Source of the DNA: Verrucomicrobium sp. BvORR034
Lineage (GTDB): Bacteria > Verrucomicrobiota > Verrucomicrobiia > Verrucomicrobiales > Verrucomicrobiaceae
Assembly (NCBI RefSeq): GCF_000739635.1
Contig: NZ_BATQ01000127.1
Span: forward strand, 1-54,747
Direction: 5' to 3'
Length of the DNA stretch: 54,747 bases
Shown piece by piece: positions 9,099-23,583 of the stretch (position 1 is the first letter of the stretch; the number at the start of each line of letters is the position of its first letter). The translations under genes were made by a program, and so were the position numbers. The notes under the pieces were generated by a model. The model saw nothing but the letters and a program-made list of their open reading frames with translations, searched no databases and was not told the DNA's origin.

Positions 9099-10073
9099 AT
9101 GTCTCTTCCGCCATCCACCCCGTTCAGCATCCCCTCCCTGGAGACGATCAACCGCTACTCCCCAGACCATCGCATTGCCCTCTACGTCCAGTGCGATGAA
9201 GAAGTCCGCGGCCGCTTCCTGGTTCAGGGCAAGGTACTCCACACCCTGGGGGACGAGGGCGAAAAACTCCTCAAAGAGGCGGGCATCAAACCCTCCAGCC
9301 TCGGCAATGCCCGGTACGCCCAGCTGGCCCTCAGCCTGGCTGACGGCAAGCGCAAGATCCACCCCGGCGGCACCGGCAAGAAGGTCAAGCCCGTCCTCTT
9401 CACGGAGGAGATCTACGATGCCCTCACGCTCGATCAGTGTGTGCTGCTTGCCTACGGCTCCACTTACCGCGGCTCCGCCCGGGTGGTGCAGCACCGCCCG
9501 GCTCCGGAGACGTTTGAGGCCATTCTGAAGCTCCCCGAGTGGGATCAGGAGCTCGAGTCCTACTTTGCCCACGGCGCCACCCGCGAGATGCACGCCGCCG
9601 CCCTTGCCGTAGCAGAGCAGCGGGCCAAGGATGCCCAGGCCATGAATGATGCCGCGCGGGAGCTCCAAGCCTCCCAGGCCCCCCCGCCGGCCATCCCCGT
9701 CCCACCTGCCCCCGTCATCGTCAGCGCCCCACCAGCGGCTCCAGAAGGCACTCCCGAGCCGGCTCCCGCCCCCGCGCTACCGGCAGAGGTGACCAACGTC
9801 GTCCCCTTCCCCGGTACCGCCGGGCTGACGGAAGTCTCCGACCAGCTGGGCGATCACAGCGAGGTGGACAACACCGACGACCACGTCTCAGACGAGGACA
9901 TCGGCATCACTGCCTCCGAGTGGCAGGAGCACTTCGAGCAGCTCCAGGCGCTCTCCCGGCAATTCTCCCCGCACGTCACCGCGGAAGATCGGGCCGAGAT
10001 GGTCTCCCAGCTCCGGGAGCTCGCTGAGGAGGTCGAGGCCACCCTCGCCGAACTTGCACAGGTCGCTGCATAG
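9099..10073 (+). CDS. Hypothetical protein with Pro-rich linker and coiled coil (324 aa)
   Basis: The N-terminal domain (about residues 8-130) is compact and has a pattern of repeated LLAYGSTYRGSARV-like strands. A Pro/Ala-rich linker covers about 188-240, and the end is an acidic, Glu/Leu-rich helix likely to form a coiled coil (about 275-322). No family is recognised. ATG codons at 9060 and 9099 are both possible; I prefer 9099 because it is preceded by the CCACC-type context seen at other starts here. A hairpin follows immediately after the stop. Confidence 0.6.
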   Translation: MSLPPSTPFSIPSLETINRYSPDHRIALYVQCDEEVRGRFLVQGKVLHTLGDEGEKLLKEAGIKPSSLGNARYAQLALSLADGKRKIHPGGTGKKVKPVLFTEEIYDALTLDQCVLLAYGSTYRGSARVVQHRPAPETFEAILKLPEWDQELESYFAHGATREMHAAALAVAEQRAKDAQAMNDAARELQASQAPPPAIPVPPAPVIVSAPPAAPEGTPEPAPAPALPAEVTNVVPFPGTAGLTEVSDQLGDHSEVDNTDDHVSDEDIGITASEWQEHFEQLQALSRQFSPHVTAEDRAEMVSQLRELAEEVEATLAELAQVAA

Positions 10074-10088
10074 GTCCGGAGGTCCAGA

Positions 10089-10424: not shown

Positions 10425-11621
10425 ATGAATTTCACCACCACCCAGCCCGAACTGAAGCGCCTCGCCGCCCTCCTGCGCCCCTTGGGGCTGCCCAAAAGCA
10501 GCCTGCCCGTCCTCACCCATTTGCGCCTGGAGGCCAACGGATCCGGCATCACTGCCTACGCCACCGATCTGGAGACCGCCCTCATCGCTCCCCTGCAGCC
10601 CACGCAGATCGATCCTGATCCCAGTTTTCACGCCAGCCTGCCGGTGGAGTTCCTGCTCCGTGTCGCCCGGGAGGCGGACAAAGACACCTCCATCACCTGG
10701 GCCCTGGCAGACAGCCAGCTGGAGCTGCGGTGGTCCTCGCAGGGCGTTCCCATGCATGAGAGCGCTCCCTGTTTGCCCCACCACGACTTCCCAGCCATCG
10801 ACACCAGCGGCCACGAGCACGGCCTCTGGGTCGGCGCGCCCCTCCTGGAGGCATTCCGCCAGGCCCTGTCTCATGTCAGCGAGGACACGACCCGCCACGT
10901 GCTCATGGGCGTGTTCCTGGACCATGAGGACCACCGCATCGTTGCGACCGACGGCCGTCGGCTCTTTTGCAGCCGGTCCCCGGTGGCTCTACCCTGCAGC
11001 GTCATCATCCCCACAGCGGCCGCCAGTTTCTTGGCCGATCACATGGGGGAAGAAGGTCCCATCTGGTTCAAGACACCACCTGCAGGGGAGGGACAGGTGC
11101 CCTACGCCAGCTCAATCTACGCCCGCCTCGCCGGCAACGCCTTCTACACGTGCAAAACCATTGAGGGCGTCTTCCCGCGGTACCAGCAGGTCATCCCCTG
11201 GTCCAGCCTGCCGCATGAGGCGCACCTCACGATGGAGCGGGACACTCTGCTCAAGCAGCTCCGCCATGTGAGCAGCGTGGATGCCCGCTTGGCCTTCCGG
11301 ATGGGGGATGGCATCCTCGCCATCTGCTACCGCCCCACGCCCCAACGGCCGTTTACGGATTGGATTGCCGTCGGCACCACCGCCTATCAGGGGCCCGCCG
11401 TCGTGTCGGCGTTCTGCGGCGCCTACTTCACCCAGGCCATCCAGTCTTTGACCAGCCCCGTCCTCCGCTTCCTGGATGAGCTCAGCCCCATCATGCTGGA
11501 GAGCGGCCCAGCCCTGACCGTCATCATGCCCATGCGCATCGAGGGCGAAGGCCTTCCGGATCCCACCCGCCTTCTCGCCAACCGCGCTTCGGTCCCGCCC
11601 GTTTTCCCGCCCGCCACTTAA
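10425..11621 (+). CDS. DNA polymerase sliding clamp (beta subunit, DnaN-like), element-encoded
   Basis: A divergent beta-clamp. Near the N terminus, LPVLTHLRLEANGSGITAYATDLE (about residues 26-49) matches the first-domain pattern of DnaN. Later, DHRIVATDGRRL (about 167-178) matches the conserved TDGHRL segment of the second domain. The length, 398 aa, is slightly above the usual 366 or so. A clamp tethers polymerase and other clamp-binding proteins to DNA; an element-borne copy suggests control over its own replication or interference with the host clamp. It is flanked by the noncoding block on the left and a strong terminator on the right, so it is probably transcribed alone. Confidence 0.75.
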   Translation: MNFTTTQPELKRLAALLRPLGLPKSSLPVLTHLRLEANGSGITAYATDLETALIAPLQPTQIDPDPSFHASLPVEFLLRVAREADKDTSITWALADSQLELRWSSQGVPMHESAPCLPHHDFPAIDTSGHEHGLWVGAPLLEAFRQALSHVSEDTTRHVLMGVFLDHEDHRIVATDGRRLFCSRSPVALPCSVIIPTAAASFLADHMGEEGPIWFKTPPAGEGQVPYASSIYARLAGNAFYTCKTIEGVFPRYQQVIPWSSLPHEAHLTMERDTLLKQLRHVSSVDARLAFRMGDGILAICYRPTPQRPFTDWIAVGTTAYQGPAVVSAFCGAYFTQAIQSLTSPVLRFLDELSPIMLESGPALTVIMPMRIEGEGLPDPTRLLANRASVPPVFPPAT

Positions 11622-12652: not shown

Positions 12653-14407
12653 CTACTTGGGCTTGCCAAAAATCAGGGTGTGCCGCCCACCGAACACGCT
12701 GTGAGTGAGTAACAAGTACATGGAAGCCCCCATTTCATTCGTCTGCTGATTCAAAAAAAGAACGAATTTTGCATCCGCATCCCCACCTGTGAATATCTGC
12801 TCTGAGACTACAATAGCTTTGTATTCCCATGTTCCCGGATTGCTCCTTACCTGAAGTAGTGGATTGGAAATGGAAATATTTCCACCGCTCACCTCTACCT
12901 TTCCTGAGATGTTATTCAGTCCTTGTCCAAGAGCTATAGCCGAATCATCAAATTTCTTCAGTTGTTCTGCAGTGAGGCTAACCGGAATCGGTTGAGGAGG
13001 CATCACCCAGTCCACCAAACCCAGCTGACTAGTTTTAAGCGTCAGACGTCGCTGAGCGTCCTCAGATCTGATCGTGTACGCAGCCTTCACTTTTATCATC
13101 ACTGATCTACTGCTTGCCTCCTGAAAAAGATCAATTTTCCGCGCAATGTTGAGTCCGCGAAAAAATATACGGGGCTCCTCCCCCTTCTCAATTCTCACTT
13201 TCGCCTTGAACTCATCAAGCTGTTCTTGGCTCTTGAAGAAATCATCACTGGAAGAACTGCTACCCCCTCCAGCCGACCCTCCAAGTGAGAACATCGACGC
13301 CGCAAAACTTCCGGCAGCTGAGGCAGAGACATTCGAGCTCTTGAGCACAGATTTGATGGTCTCATTAGCTGCCTTATGCGTCTGTGACTCAAGAGCAGTT
13401 TTAGCAATATCCCACATAACAGTAATGGGGCGACCTTGTTCCAAAGTCGCACCTTCCCCCAAAATCTGGGTAGCAAACGTTTGCATCTCCTTCTGCTTAA
13501 ATCCAATCTCGGATTCCATCCTCTTTGCTGCAGCTGCCATCAGCGCCCTTGACTCTTCTCCTATGGAATTTTCCATACCCGGATCCACAAACTCAAGGAC
13601 AACCTGATTCGAAACAGACTGCAGCAACAACTCCCTCACGTCTTTCTCTATCACGAATTCCTTCCCTCCTGTGTTGGCCATCCGTGTCTCATATGCTTTC
13701 TCCAACCCCAAAGCCGTCACCTCTATCATATTCGAACTCAACTTACCTGCTTTGTACCCATATTTAATGGTCAATGGCACCCCTTGCCCATGATCGACCA
13801 GCTCCTTTCGAAATCGGATCCATGACTTTCCAGGGATCACAAGCGTCACTTGTGCGGGACTCTCACCTCCGATTTTCGATACCCCACCAATCACTTTTAC
13901 GCCCTTCAGCCACGGAATTTCCTGGTCAACTTCAATACTATAGGACGTCAATTTTAGAAGAGACACCGCAGATTCGCTGATCGCGGACTCATCCATGCCT
14001 TTATACTTGCCCATCAATATATCTTTTCCAATACCACTGTACGAATGCTCAAAAGATACATCGAGGGTTATATCATCTTCTTCCACCGTCCGCGCTTTAC
14101 TTACTTCAGTTAACCTTTGGACACTTGCTGGGGAGAAAACGGGTAAAAACTGTGGAGTAAAATAAAACTGGTAATCTCTATTCCACCATCGGCTTTTGGC
14201 CTCCGAGCCTGTATCTTTTAGAATCTCATTGTGCGTACTGACTGTAGGATAAACGCGCACGGTGACTGCCCGACGGGTATCGTGCGAAAAACCATCAGAT
14301 ATTAAGGCATTTGCACCCCCATCAACATCTATTTGGGCGTATGCGAGGTTTCCCAGGGCGATCAAGGACTGTACACCTAAAGCAATTAAAAGTGTGGAAG
14401 ATTTCAT
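12653..14407 (-). CDS. Secreted protein of unknown function, AT-rich cargo gene (584 aa)
   Basis: A signal peptide covers about residues 1-24 (hydrophobic core TLLIALGVQSLIALG, cleavage probably after LAYA). I chose the ATG at 14,407 because GGAG lies 9 nt upstream; an earlier ATG at 14,422 lacks this. The body is mixed beta/alpha with a Gly/Ser/Ala-rich hydrophobic stretch near residues 360-395 (SAAGSFAASMFSLGGSAGGGSSSS), a feature sometimes seen in membrane-inserting proteins. Base composition is clearly more AT-rich than its neighbours and it has its own terminator, so it looks like recently acquired cargo or a lysogenic-conversion gene. I recognise no family. Confidence 0.7.
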   Translation of the reverse strand: MKSSTLLIALGVQSLIALGNLAYAQIDVDGGANALISDGFSHDTRRAVTVRVYPTVSTHNEILKDTGSEAKSRWWNRDYQFYFTPQFLPVFSPASVQRLTEVSKARTVEEDDITLDVSFEHSYSGIGKDILMGKYKGMDESAISESAVSLLKLTSYSIEVDQEIPWLKGVKVIGGVSKIGGESPAQVTLVIPGKSWIRFRKELVDHGQGVPLTIKYGYKAGKLSSNMIEVTALGLEKAYETRMANTGGKEFVIEKDVRELLLQSVSNQVVLEFVDPGMENSIGEESRALMAAAAKRMESEIGFKQKEMQTFATQILGEGATLEQGRPITVMWDIAKTALESQTHKAANETIKSVLKSSNVSASAAGSFAASMFSLGGSAGGGSSSSSDDFFKSQEQLDEFKAKVRIEKGEEPRIFFRGLNIARKIDLFQEASSRSVMIKVKAAYTIRSEDAQRRLTLKTSQLGLVDWVMPPQPIPVSLTAEQLKKFDDSAIALGQGLNNISGKVEVSGGNISISNPLLQVRSNPGTWEYKAIVVSEQIFTGGDADAKFVLFLNQQTNEMGASMYLLLTHSVFGGRHTLIFGKPK

Positions 14408-14655
14408 ATTGGATAGCTCCATTGTTAGTTTTCAGTAGACTCTTATTTGCATACACGTCGTCCAAAAGTCCAGCCAATTCACTGTAATTTTCGGACAGAG
14501 ACCAGAATCGGGAAAGCGTGGGAACGCACTTTCAACTAGCGCAACCTTTGACGCCTGCTTCTACCAAAGCTGTTTTCGATAAAGGCTCGGGGTCACAGAC
14601 AGCAGAATTCGAAGAATATATTTGCTACTGACTGCGATTCATTACAGCGTTTGGA

Positions 14656-15596: not shown

Positions 15597-17459
15597 TTAA
15601 TATCGCAGCTCATAGTCCCTTCCCATTGATGGCGGTGGGTCGGCCTCGGTGGTCAGCTGCAGCTCCCCTGCCCTGGGTGGGCTCAGCAGGCCGGTGATGT
15701 CGGCCACGGCGATCTGCATACGCTCCGTGTCGGTCGCGTGGTCATCCGTCCGCTTTTGGTACCACTCGCCAATCTCCTCGCCCTTGCCGTTGGTACGGTA
15801 CCGGCGATCCCAGGCCGTGACCTGCAGCTTGTACTCTTCGGAGGTCTCCTCATGCAGCTGCCAGTCACCAAGCTCCCCGTACATCATCATGTACAATCGG
15901 TCCAGGGTAGAGGGCTTAGAGAACCGGTAGAGCGGGATCGGCCGCACTCTGCCGGCATTGGCCGTTCCCAGGGCGGGATCCACCGGCGAGACATCCCAGA
16001 TCTGCTTGCGGCGGGCGGTTCCCTCCCCCACGAGGAAGTGCATGGCGTCGTCACCCTTCATCGCCTTCCACTTGTACCCTGAATCGACCACCATCTGATA
16101 GCCCTCCGCCGTGGCAAAGGCGGTGTCGATCGCGATGTTGTAGTCGTCCACATGCCAGTCGTCCCGAAGCTGCAGGATTGCCGCTTTGGAGTGGACCTTG
16201 CCAAAGAAGAGCTTCCGGGAGATCCCTCCGTACCCCCAGGCACGGATGTTCACCCAGTAATGGCGTCCGTCTTTAGCCTGGACGTCGATCGTCATCACAC
16301 GACGTTGCTCGAGCTCCCATTTGTCCAGCCTGCCATAGGGGCGCACCCGCTGCAGCAGGAAGCGTTCTTCTTTCTGGTGGCGCAGGCGGTCTGTCCAGGG
16401 CAAGCCCCGGGTTTCGTTCCAATGGTCCTTGTAGTCGGAGTAATCCCCCCACTTCATCGCGGTGACGGCCGCCAAAAACTCCTTCACCTGGTCCTCCCAG
16501 CTGGTGAAGTGCGGCAGCAACGCGTTCCAGTGGTAGGACTTCGTATCGGACGCCGCATTCGGATTCGCTGGGATCCAGCGGCCGGTTCGGCAGAAGTATT
16601 TCCGATCAGACTGGGTCGGCCCGATGTTTCGGTACGTGTGACCGCACGCTGCGCACTCGAAGTGCAGCGTCTTCACCACCTCATCCAGGTTCCACTTGCC
16701 ATCTGGGCAGGTAGTTTCATTGGACTCCCATTTAAGGCCGCCAGGCTTGCCCTTCTCACCCCACTCCAGACGGAACTCATGATCACACTCCGGGTTGCGA
16801 CACTTCACGTGCCAGTGGTTCTGGTTGCCCAGCAGGAAGGCGCGGTGCACCGCATCCCCCTCCATGTCTGGACAGGAAATGGTGAGGTGCTTGTAGTTGT
16901 GCGGGAAGGACCGGGTGCGCTTGCGCACCATCGCCAGGGCGCCATCCTTCCACTGGCGCACCTCATCCAGGAAGAGGTACCGGTACGGCGTGGACTGCAG
17001 GGAGGCTTCGTTCTCCGCACCCACCACATGCAGGTAGGATCCCGGAAAGTACATCTCCAGGAGGTTGCGCTTGCCCTTCTCCTTGGGCAGCCGCTCCGCA
17101 ATCCGCGGAGTGTTGTCGTACATGGGCCAGAGGCGGCCCTTCACCAGCTTTTTGGCCTCGGGCGTGCTCTTCGTCACCCACAGCGCCGGCCCGGCATCTT
17201 CGTCCAGCGTCCAGCCCAGCAGGCCCATGTTCTTCACCGTCTTGCAGCTCTGGGCAGAGCACATCGACGTGACGTTGCGCACACCCTCGTCGGCAAAGTC
17301 GTCCATCGGCTGCCGGAGGAACTCCAGGTCCGGATCCCACCGGTCTCCGTTGTGCAGGACTATGTTACGGGCACACCAGTCGAAGGGAGAGACTTTGCCT
17401 GGAGGGCGGAGAGCTGCTTGGAGACTCTCGACCAGAATATTTTTTTTTAGCCCAATCAC
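15597..17459 (-). CDS. Phage terminase large subunit, GpA family (up to 620 aa)
   Basis: This is the DNA-packaging motor. The ATPase domain has a deviant Walker A, SAQSCKT (residues 68-74), and Walker B YLFLDEVRQW (161-170). A Cys-rich zinc-type insertion follows (about 215-280, with CRNPEC and CAAC). The C-terminal nuclease domain starts with a strand ending in Asp (MTIDVQAKDGRHY) and contains AIDTAF. The only in-frame start is GTG at 17,459, which gives a 95-nt overlap with the small subunit. The overlap contains an A9 tract, so the true N terminus may come from frameshifting or from a later non-ATG codon. No portal gene follows; SRAP does. Confidence 0.88.
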   Translation of the reverse strand: MIGLKKNILVESLQAALRPPGKVSPFDWCARNIVLHNGDRWDPDLEFLRQPMDDFADEGVRNVTSMCSAQSCKTVKNMGLLGWTLDEDAGPALWVTKSTPEAKKLVKGRLWPMYDNTPRIAERLPKEKGKRNLLEMYFPGSYLHVVGAENEASLQSTPYRYLFLDEVRQWKDGALAMVRKRTRSFPHNYKHLTISCPDMEGDAVHRAFLLGNQNHWHVKCRNPECDHEFRLEWGEKGKPGGLKWESNETTCPDGKWNLDEVVKTLHFECAACGHTYRNIGPTQSDRKYFCRTGRWIPANPNAASDTKSYHWNALLPHFTSWEDQVKEFLAAVTAMKWGDYSDYKDHWNETRGLPWTDRLRHQKEERFLLQRVRPYGRLDKWELEQRRVMTIDVQAKDGRHYWVNIRAWGYGGISRKLFFGKVHSKAAILQLRDDWHVDDYNIAIDTAFATAEGYQMVVDSGYKWKAMKGDDAMHFLVGEGTARRKQIWDVSPVDPALGTANAGRVRPIPLYRFSKPSTLDRLYMMMYGELGDWQLHEETSEEYKLQVTAWDRRYRTNGKGEEIGEWYQKRTDDHATDTERMQIAVADITGLLSPPRAGELQLTTEADPPPSMGRDYELRY

Positions 17460-17946
17460 CCAGGGAGAGATCCTGCAGCAAACCGTCGTGTGCGTTGCCC
17501 AGGCGCTTGGTCGCCTCCGGCACAGTTTCCCCTACCACCTGGGGAGCGATGTTGTGGCGCAACGTCCGCAGGTTCGAGACCAAACCACCAAACAAGGCCG
17601 ACATGACTGAGACCACCTCGTCCACGTGGAGCAGCTCGCCGCGCATCTTGGCAAGCTCGATGTCCTGCATCTCCAGCTTGCCAGCCGCGATCTTGGTCTC
17701 GATGTCGAGCTTGTTTTCCTTCTCCTTCTTGCCGTGGCGGCGGCCGCTCTTGTCGATCCACTCCTTCCATTCCTCAATGGGATAGCGCCCGTCGGCCGTA
17801 TGGCCAGGGTTACCCTCAATCTTCAGCCACCGCTGGATTGTCTTGCGGTCACGACCAATCAGCTCCGCCAGTACGGCCTGGTTTTTCGCGTACCCCGGGC
17901 TCGCTGACGGAGTGTCACTGTCACCTATCGGCAATTCTCCATCCAC
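17365..17946 (-). CDS. Phage terminase small subunit (193 aa as read)
   Basis: DNA-recognition subunit. A Nu1-like helix-turn-helix region lies at about residues 20-62 (AVLAELIGRDRKTIQRWLKIEG, then IEEWKEWI). A long charged helix (about 72-110) ends in MRGELLHVDEV, and LFGGLVSNLRTLRHNIAPQV (about 118-137) is typical of small terminase C-terminal helices. The start is a GTG at 17,946. After an A9 tract (residues 168-171 AKKK) the reading frame turns into low-complexity Ser/Pro sequence, which is probably not native; the natural continuation is the large-subunit frame. Confidence 0.8.
   Translation of the reverse strand: MDGELPIGDSDTPSASPGYAKNQAVLAELIGRDRKTIQRWLKIEGNPGHTADGRYPIEEWKEWIDKSGRRHGKKEKENKLDIETKIAAGKLEMQDIELAKMRGELLHVDEVVSVMSALFGGLVSNLRTLRHNIAPQVVGETVPEATKRLGNAHDGLLQDLSLGDWAKKKYSGRESPSSSPPSRQSLSLRLVCP
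17440..17448 (-). other. A9 tract in the terminase overlap (possible slippage site)
   Basis: On the coding strand the small-subunit frame reads GCT AAA AAA AAA TAT. Removing one A moves translation into the large-subunit frame (AAT ATT CTG GTC GAG). Such A runs promote transcriptional or ribosomal slippage. It is equally compatible with a one-base assembly error in a homopolymer. Confidence 0.5.
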
Positions 17947-22233: not shown

Positions 22234-23583
22234 TCACATTCCGTTGCCACCCCCGCCGGCAATCAAGCCGTCTAGAAGCTTGGCAGCCTCCCCACCCCCT
22301 TGCTGCTTCGTCAACAGCTCAGCAATCATTCGGAGCACCTTCTCCGGCGCGACAGCATCGTCGCCTGGGGACGTCACAGTGAGCCCCGCATCGGTGTGGG
22401 CCCGGTTGGGCACGTAGCCAGCATAGGTCTCATAGGTCGTCTTTACATCGTCTCCAAGCCACCTCGCCACAACCGCAATAGGCACCCCTCCCATCACCAA
22501 ATGCGTCGCGTAAGTATGCCTCAATGTATGAACTCCCACCCAGGACAGCCCGGCCTTCTTCACCAGTGCCTTAAATGGGCGCCGTGGATTCCAGCGATAT
22601 TTATCCTTCCCACGCTCGATCTCTGGATGGAGAAGGTACTTCCCCTCCCATTTGCGGTTCTTCATGAACCGCAGGAGTTCCGAATTCATCGGAATCGAAC
22701 GAGCTTCCCTGTCCTTGGGTTTGAACGTGTCTGTCTCCTGGACCACAATCTCCCCGTGCCACTCGGCACCCGCCTTCCAAAAACGGATCCATTCCGGTCT
22801 GGCCTGCACAATTTCGTTGAGGCGCAGCCCGGCATGGAACCCCAGCCAGAGCAACGTTTCCATATCCTCCCGGTCACAGCAGGAGAACAAGACGTCACGC
22901 TCGGCTTTTTGGCAAAAGAGCTCGACTCTCGTCTTCTTGCTATTCGGGACCTCGACTTCGCGGACGACGTTCTTCACCAACCCACCTTGGTCTTTGAGCC
23001 ATTCGAAAAACGTCCCTACCCTCGTGACATAGGTCTTCACAGTGAGATCAGAGAGGGGTTTCCCCTTGGGTTTGGGAGCCCCCTCGACAAGTCTTTTCCT
23101 AGACACCTTGCCCTCCCTGGCCAGAAAGTCGCGCCATTGCTCCATCTTAGCAGCCGAGATGCCACTGATCATCGTCTCTCCGCCGACGAATTCACAGAAC
23201 AGCTTGATGGCCGATTCATCGGAATCAACGGTCCACTCACTGGCATTTTTCCTCTTCTTCTCTGCCAAGAATCGCTTCGCTTCGAACGCGATGCTGCCAG
23301 CACGATATTCCTGGTCGGTGGTCCGCTTGTATTGGAGGGCCAACTGAACAGCAGTATCGAAGTCTTGGGTGTCCAGCGCAATTCTACGTGGCCGCATCCC
23401 CTTCACTTGGGCGGGCCGATAGTAGAACCAGCCGTTGATCTGTGTCAGGCCGGAGATCTTCTGTGCACCACTTCTGGCCTGTTTTTTCCGTGGCCCTGCT
23501 TTTTGACCACCATCTTTGACCAGATGACCACTTTTCATGTGTGCAATGTGGTCAAATTCTGTGATTCGTGCAACGTCTTTCAC
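22234..23583 (-). CDS. Tyrosine recombinase / phage integrase (up to 449 aa)
   Basis: The catalytic domain has the full set of residues: R254 (AGLRLNE), H352 and R355 (HTLRHTYAT), W375 in the ARWLGDD position where many family members have His, and the nucleophile Y387 (TTYETYAGY). Residues 100-200 form the SAM-like core-binding domain and the N-terminal 60 residues are basic. It catalyses site-specific integration and excision at the adjacent tRNA site. The first codon of the longest frame is GTG at 23,583; ATG at 23,538 is the alternative. Transcription runs away from the attachment site. Confidence 0.93.
   Translation of the reverse strand: MKDVARITEFDHIAHMKSGHLVKDGGQKAGPRKKQARSGAQKISGLTQINGWFYYRPAQVKGMRPRRIALDTQDFDTAVQLALQYKRTTDQEYRAGSIAFEAKRFLAEKKRKNASEWTVDSDESAIKLFCEFVGGETMISGISAAKMEQWRDFLAREGKVSRKRLVEGAPKPKGKPLSDLTVKTYVTRVGTFFEWLKDQGGLVKNVVREVEVPNSKKTRVELFCQKAERDVLFSCCDREDMETLLWLGFHAGLRLNEIVQARPEWIRFWKAGAEWHGEIVVQETDTFKPKDREARSIPMNSELLRFMKNRKWEGKYLLHPEIERGKDKYRWNPRRPFKALVKKAGLSWVGVHTLRHTYATHLVMGGVPIAVVARWLGDDVKTTYETYAGYVPNRAHTDAGLTVTSPGDDAVAPEKVLRMIAELLTKQQGGGEAAKLLDGLIAGGGGNGM

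Follow-up and report, generated by a model that had tools for sequence, protein, structure and literature searches.

The window, that is, the whole stretch of DNA analysed here (54,747 b), is the entire contig C74 of a genome of 8.58 Mb (8,576,512 bases in 200 contigs), and it carries a pair of terminase genes on its minus strand. The product of terL (15597..17459; 620 aa when counted from the GTG at 17459) is a large subunit of the lambda gpA type, since it matches both the ATPase domain GpA_ATPase (PF05876, 2.2e-34, 119.7 bits against a curated Pfam cut-off of 25.6) and the nuclease domain GpA_nuclease (PF20454, 5.1e-16, 59.2 bits against 22.5), in addition to phrog_15 (7.1e-67). Directly upstream of it lies terS (17365..17946, minus strand), a 193-aa ORF from a GTG as the sequence stands, whose product matches the PHROG families phrog_57 (1.9e-13) and phrog_141 (2.9e-10) and was aligned with the TerS of six relatives; this family match and its position identify it as the small subunit, and no Pfam model matched it in the Pfam scan. 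A comparison of this TerS with solved structures returned three matches up to E 1, which are proteins of other kinds (best 0.00097, a PCNA) and were taken as chance, and the TerL profile found no solved structure up to 0.001. ORF calling confirmed the 95-nt overlap of the two genes (17365..17459, minus strand) reported in the first-pass annotation, together with the run of nine A's inside it (17440..17448, minus strand). The same annotation was right that TerL has no ATG near its start, as the first ATG in its frame comes 142 nt past the start of the run; the only canonical start ahead of the run in this frame is a GTG 11 nt upstream of it, and the conserved TerL protein begins at the run itself. 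This A9 is the sole A9/T9 in the window and one of three in the 8,576,512-base genome, the other two lying between predicted ORFs (at least 60 aa).

Scans with the window TerL alone found no relative among the genome contigs or the viral contigs, and tblastn with the window TerS against the phage collection gave no match. Relatives beyond L003 were found by scans with a two-sequence and a seven-sequence TerL alignment; the genome scans drew 142, 387, 384 and 386 genomes, and 80 of the 190 relatives in the seven-sequence scan were taken, so the set is a sample. Loci (numbered with the prefix L) L032-L047, L201 and L208 are left out of the junction counts, and repeats (L049/L050, L106/L107, L093/L206 and contigs fetched twice) were merged before counting. 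There are 21 distinct clade loci with a readable junction: the window, L003, L048, L050, L051, L088, L089, L092, L093, L094, L096, L097, L100, L101, L102, L103, L104, L106, L110, L196 and L207. A run is found at the junction from TerS to TerL in 20 of these 21, as A10 in 11 loci and as A9 in nine; the close homologues thus have the run at the overlap, and no A8 was seen. Over about 600 residues, the window TerL shares 43-49% identity with seven clade members, and many pairs within the clade are only 43-55% identical. The closest terminase relative of the window among the sampled genomes is L003, from a genome of the same family, with a TerL 49% identical and the same layout with A10.

The run is restricted to this clade. 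The 80 loci, less two repeats, gave 78 rows, which comprise 14 run loci, L096, L108 and 62 others. These 62 are more distant (42 of them are distinct when the first 400 codons are compared, and one has less than 120 nt upstream), and none has a run of at least 8 between 330 nt upstream and 60 nt into the match. Likewise, no run of at least 7 was found within the interval that begins 200 nt ahead of the match start and ends 120 nt past it in 28 genome loci (L004-L031) or in 37 viral loci (L052-L087, L090), and the A run is absent from seven further genome loci (L197-L200, L202-L204). In a TerL tree of 62 rows, which was made by a quick method and excludes the later finds L196 and L207, 18 run loci, L096 and the truncated L108 lie on one side of a branch with an SH-aLRT of 100; some branches are long (the window and L101 among them), and placement inside the clade is unsure. 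With L108 not counted, two trait changes suffice on this tree, which we read as one gain and one loss of the run. The loss would be that of L096, which has no run and has an ATG at the junction (9977-10076), with a run-bearing sister, L102; here the slippery site appears to have been lost naturally, and a start codon has taken its place. In the run-less L114, TerL starts M-N-I-V-E where the run clade reads KK-N-I-L-V-E, and its start overlaps the TerS stop as ATGA. L108 (L108:2-1786) is a clade member whose contig ends right at the junction, which leaves the run unreadable.

Several observations argue that the run is kept by selection. Across 19 clade pieces, one of them the window, only two other A9 or T9 runs occur in a total of 262,771 bases. 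Lysine is mostly encoded by AAG in most clade genes (AAA fraction 0.06-0.67), and A-ending codons across the whole run are expected, from each locus's own codon use, in 0.96 of 20 loci against the 20 run loci observed, so chance codon choice was rejected as the source of the run. These 20 loci share descent and are not independent, but TerL identities of 43-55% imply that there has been ample time for loss. The run is never shorter than 9 in any of them, even at loci where it is completed by Gln, Glu, Thr or Asn codons. A search pattern that allowed six or more A's but required the flanks TGGGC...TTYTGG gave 23 matches in the viral collection, in which all ten terminase junctions have A9 or A10 and the other 13 matches are unrelated. 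Random assembly error across the whole clade was rejected as well, since separate records of near-identical phages agree on the run length (L049/L050 A10, L106/L107 A9, L093/L206 A10 at about 97-98% nucleotide identity); four record pairs were compared, of which L003/L091 are the same contig and carry no weight, and L106/L107 show no difference over 2,600 bases and may come from one source.

The reading frames around the run are arranged in the same way in nearly all members: relative to TerS, TerL is in the -1 frame at 19 of the 20 run loci, and the window is the sole exception (+1). A typical TerS frame is ...GAT TGG GCA AAA AAA AAA CCG TTT TGG... (DWAKKKPFW), and the corresponding TerL frame is ...GGC AAA AAA AAA ACC GTT TTG GTC... 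(GKKKTVLV). The TerS frame stops 16-35 residues past the run. An FW motif follows the run in the TerS frame in 14 of 17 loci tested, and synonymous shuffles of TerL gave this motif in 1-26% of draws for the 14 loci that have it and in none for the other three. Since the beginning of the TerS tail is thus conserved beyond what synonymous shuffling gives, both frames beside the run seem to be under selection, although the same picture would arise if the nucleotides were conserved for some other cause. How long the TerS tail stays open was rejected as evidence for dual coding, as more than half of the shuffled draws matched or exceeded its length at 15 of 17 loci.

In the window, the A9 is followed by TATTCTGG, and past the run the TerS frame departs from the family tail and reads YSGRESPSSSPPSRQ..., with KKNILVESLQAAL in the TerL frame. 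The family-like tail IFWSRVSKQLSALQ, which contains the conserved motif FW.RV....L, sits in the third frame, and a frame display against the TerS tails of relatives marks 17360..17439 (minus strand) as a likely remnant of this tail (IFWSRVSKQLSALQAK...). The Ser/Pro sequence that the first-pass annotation had described after the run is therefore present in the window but is not the TerS tail of the family. In the same way, its statement that loss of one A joins the two frames holds for the window as printed, where one base fewer or two more would do so, but not for the clade, in which the -1 position of TerL in 19 of 20 loci calls for one extra A or a -1 ribosomal slip. The window sequence thus appears one base short relative to the layout of its kin, and the missing base may be either a sequence error or a real indel. 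We consider it slightly better than an even chance that sequencing or assembly has turned an A10 into the A9 and that the strain itself follows the layout of its family: the third frame right after the run holds the conserved TerS tail motif, as if one base were missing, the window alone among the 20 run loci has TerL in +1, and homopolymers of about 9-10 bases are error-prone in sequencing. Against this, A9 is also found in eight other members, though in a context that preserves the usual frames, and a true indel, of the kind that DNA replication readily produces in such runs, would look alike. The first-pass annotation had proposed that a one-base error hides a normal gene start; a missing base is plausible here, but an A10 would expose no normal TerL start, because the relatives have no start at a conserved place and would need a frameshift themselves.

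Taken together, these results lead us to propose, with a probability of roughly 0.85, that programmed frameshifting at the run yields TerS plus a TerS-TerL fusion, whichever agent is responsible. Programmed slippage to a fusion, one of the two options raised in the first-pass annotation, is strongly supported by the retention of A9 or A10 at the junction in 20 of 21 distinct clade loci. The conserved run near the end of terS would be the frameshift site. An unshifted message would be read to the TerS stop and would give free TerS with its conserved tail, and the fraction that enters the TerL frame at the run would give a TerS-KK(K)-TerL fusion, probably the main source of TerL and in some members its sole source. 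The outcome would be a set ratio of TerS to TerL and a TerL tethered to TerS. The sequences themselves establish where the run lies, that it is conserved and confined to the clade, how the frames relate and that TerL has no conserved start codon; from this arrangement we infer that the shift occurs, through which agent and how efficiently, and that the fusion is used. The run-bearing phages would probably then be a group, some of them lodged in Verrucomicrobia, whose large packaging protein comes from a slip at the run.

Two agents could produce the same fusion. RNA polymerase could slip on the run, adding one A in the relatives, or removing one or adding two in the window as printed; a close second agent would be the ribosome, by a -1 slip on A_AAA_AAA without any slippage of the mRNA, as in E. 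coli dnaX, where -1 programmed ribosomal frameshifting occurs, or in lambda G-GT. The ribosomal route draws on the in-frame slippery heptamer A_AAA_AAA, which is present in 20 of 20 run loci, and on the -1 direction in 19 of 20, since a single constant direction points to ribosomal frameshifting and not to polymerase slippage by a rule given in PMC3711429. The direction in the clade is also held by the overlapping reading frames; freedom of direction among orthologues is typical of transcriptional slippage but not required for it, and the one deviating direction, in the window, may be a sequence error. If real, that change of direction would favour polymerase slippage. Polymerase slippage is favoured because the run reaches at least 9 in all 20 loci although a ribosomal heptamer needs only 7, and all ten terminase junctions have A9 or A10 in a pattern open to six. 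Bacterial RNA polymerase slips efficiently in vivo at nine A or T, as in Thermus dnaX according to PMC5009743, and a run of about nine or more A/T lies at the ORF overlap in 20 of 21 distinct clade loci. Polymerase slippage is also favoured because neither of the stimulators common, though not universal, at ribosomal sites was found: no downstream RNA structure stands out in pseudoknot-free folding (mean z 0.03, 0 of 20 below -2), no base pair emerged from an ungapped consensus fold of 17 rows, and the 20 run loci share no recurring SD-like motif. Moreover, a -1 slip cannot join the frames of the window as printed. We therefore lean towards the polymerase over the ribosome as the agent; we give polymerase slippage in particular about an even chance and regard ribosomal frameshifting as a possible but rather doubtful form of the proposed mechanism. 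In its fullest version, TerL would be made only as a covalent TerS-TerL fusion by polymerase slippage, the slip rate would set the ratio of initiator (TerS) to motor, and the clade would have given up the start codon of the motor; we hold this version tentatively, at somewhat less than even odds.

Another reading concerns the window only: its terminase would belong to a decaying prophage, and the A9 would be a first inactivating frameshift. The window encodes an integrase of the tyrosine-recombinase type (22234-23583, Pfam) and a sliding-clamp-like protein (10425-11621, phrog_947), of which L103 also has a counterpart. Many lambda-type phages have head-joining and portal genes after terL, and a portal gene (phrog_21) is found downstream of terL in L106. 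In the window, a SRAP gene (PF02586; 14841-15596, minus strand) directly follows terL, and the phage-like region also holds a 589-aa ORF (12653-14422, minus strand) with an N-terminus that looks signal-like by eye and no Pfam or PHROG match. Decay would be in line with a scan of 13 window proteins that found neither a portal nor a capsid match and with the position of the genome's one lambda-type portal (C76:112892-113746, L209; the only PF05136 match) on a different contig, C76. The portal gene, however, stands about 6 kb from the end of this contig, so a single prophage divided between two contigs may account for both the C76 portal and the window terminase. The TerL frame runs for 620 codons without interruption and keeps its conserved motifs, and decay in one strain leaves the conservation of the run in the relatives unexplained, which makes this reading unlikely.

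Very unlikely, in our view, is that TerL is a separate protein made by internal initiation or reinitiation at an NTG near the run (the GTG at 17459 in the window; ATG, GTG or TTG before the run or TTG after it elsewhere). Ordinary terS/terL overlaps can be coupled in this way, for example through the ATGA of L114. A canonical start lies near the run in 14 of the 20 run loci, so that individual loci may start TerL internally, and the window GTG has a 4-nt SD-like match upstream. These starts have no fixed place or codon (before the run in nine loci, only after it in five), and those before the run are largely a by-product of the TerS Trp codon (NTGG). In the other six run loci (L094, L097, L100, L102, L110 and L196), the first ATG, GTG or TTG comes 85-152 nt (28-50 codons) after the run begins, a short way ahead of the Walker A motif. 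In six loci (L051, L092, L094, L102, L106 and L196) a stop (TAA or TGA) formed partly of the A's of the run closes the TerL frame after any upstream start, and in L110 a stop in the TerL frame ends just ahead of the run. An SD-like match of at least 4 upstream of the first start is absent in 18 of 20 run loci, and internal initiation leaves the conservation of the run unexplained. A missing canonical start is in itself not proof of a frameshift, because five of the 62 run-less rows (L132, L133, L138, L149 and L150) also have no ATG, GTG or TTG near the junction. Four of these five have a CTG there; L132, L133, L149 and L150 read CTG-AAT where others read ATG-AAT, and these may be CTG starts.

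In an AlphaFold model of the fused TerS-ATPase part (556 residues, 24 rows, mean pLDDT 81.3, pTM 0.64), the junction (residue 166-167) falls within residues 162-180, which are modelled with low confidence and connect a TerS helix to the ATPase domain; the model is compatible with a fusion but is no test of it, as the alignment had the TerS and TerL of relatives as separate rows. In PMC9611059, lambda terminase is described as one TerL with two TerS, the TerS C-terminus is reported to bind TerL in lambda, and the binding site in P22 is given as the first 23 TerL residues, the place of the fusion here. The same source reports that excess TerS inhibits T4 packaging in vitro. Fusion in a set fraction of the product would put the two binding parts side by side and fix their ratio. 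The lambda pair Nu1/A (TerL1:TerS2), whose TerL is of the same Pfam families, differs in consisting of two separate proteins (PMC9611059). Nu1 and A have separate starts.

Frameshifting of this kind has parallels elsewhere: programmed cases are known among phage tail chaperones and IS transposases and in dnaX. As described in PMC5009743, dnaX of Thermus thermophilus (tau/gamma) likewise has an uninterrupted run of at least 9 and two products that share their N-terminal part; there the unslipped message gives the long product, whereas here the short TerS is in frame and the long product needs the shift, and slippage has been measured for Thermus dnaX, whereas for the terminase it is predicted from sequence. 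Similar in layout are the two-ORF dnaX genes of Chlorobium and its kin and the IS transposases, in which programmed transcriptional realignment also joins overlapping ORFs at a poly-A run and gives a frame-zero product plus a trans-frame fusion, as proposed here, with A10 in nine of the dnaX cases (PMC3711429). These are different proteins, and the IS family cited there shifts in both directions, against -1 in 19 of 20 in the clade. Lambda gpG/gpGT are, like the terminase subunits, phage assembly proteins with a short form and a minor -1 fusion, but serve tail assembly and not DNA packaging, and their shift is ribosomal (PMC5009743). Recoding has likewise been proposed in a terminase gene of Streptomyces phage Hau3, as a possible translational bypass surrounding a UUA codon and not as a joining of terS and terL at an A run (PMC5009743). 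No report of a frameshift joining two terminase subunits was found in the portion of the open-licence PMC literature covered by our search. What we describe is thus a probable recoding site, conserved within one phage clade, at which TerS and TerL would be joined; it is of a mechanism type that is known and at a place that is new as far as searched.

For annotation, the finding means that gene callers likely choose a doubtful TTG or GTG, or clip the first TerL residues, in this clade. For the phages, slippage at the run, if true, would let a member survive a one-base change of the run, as the A9 of the window may show. With the fusion, TerL would be permanently paired with TerS and made in a defined amount without needing its own start codon; the fusion would also be a natural covalent form of the TerS-TerL complex, which is usually transient (PMC9611059).
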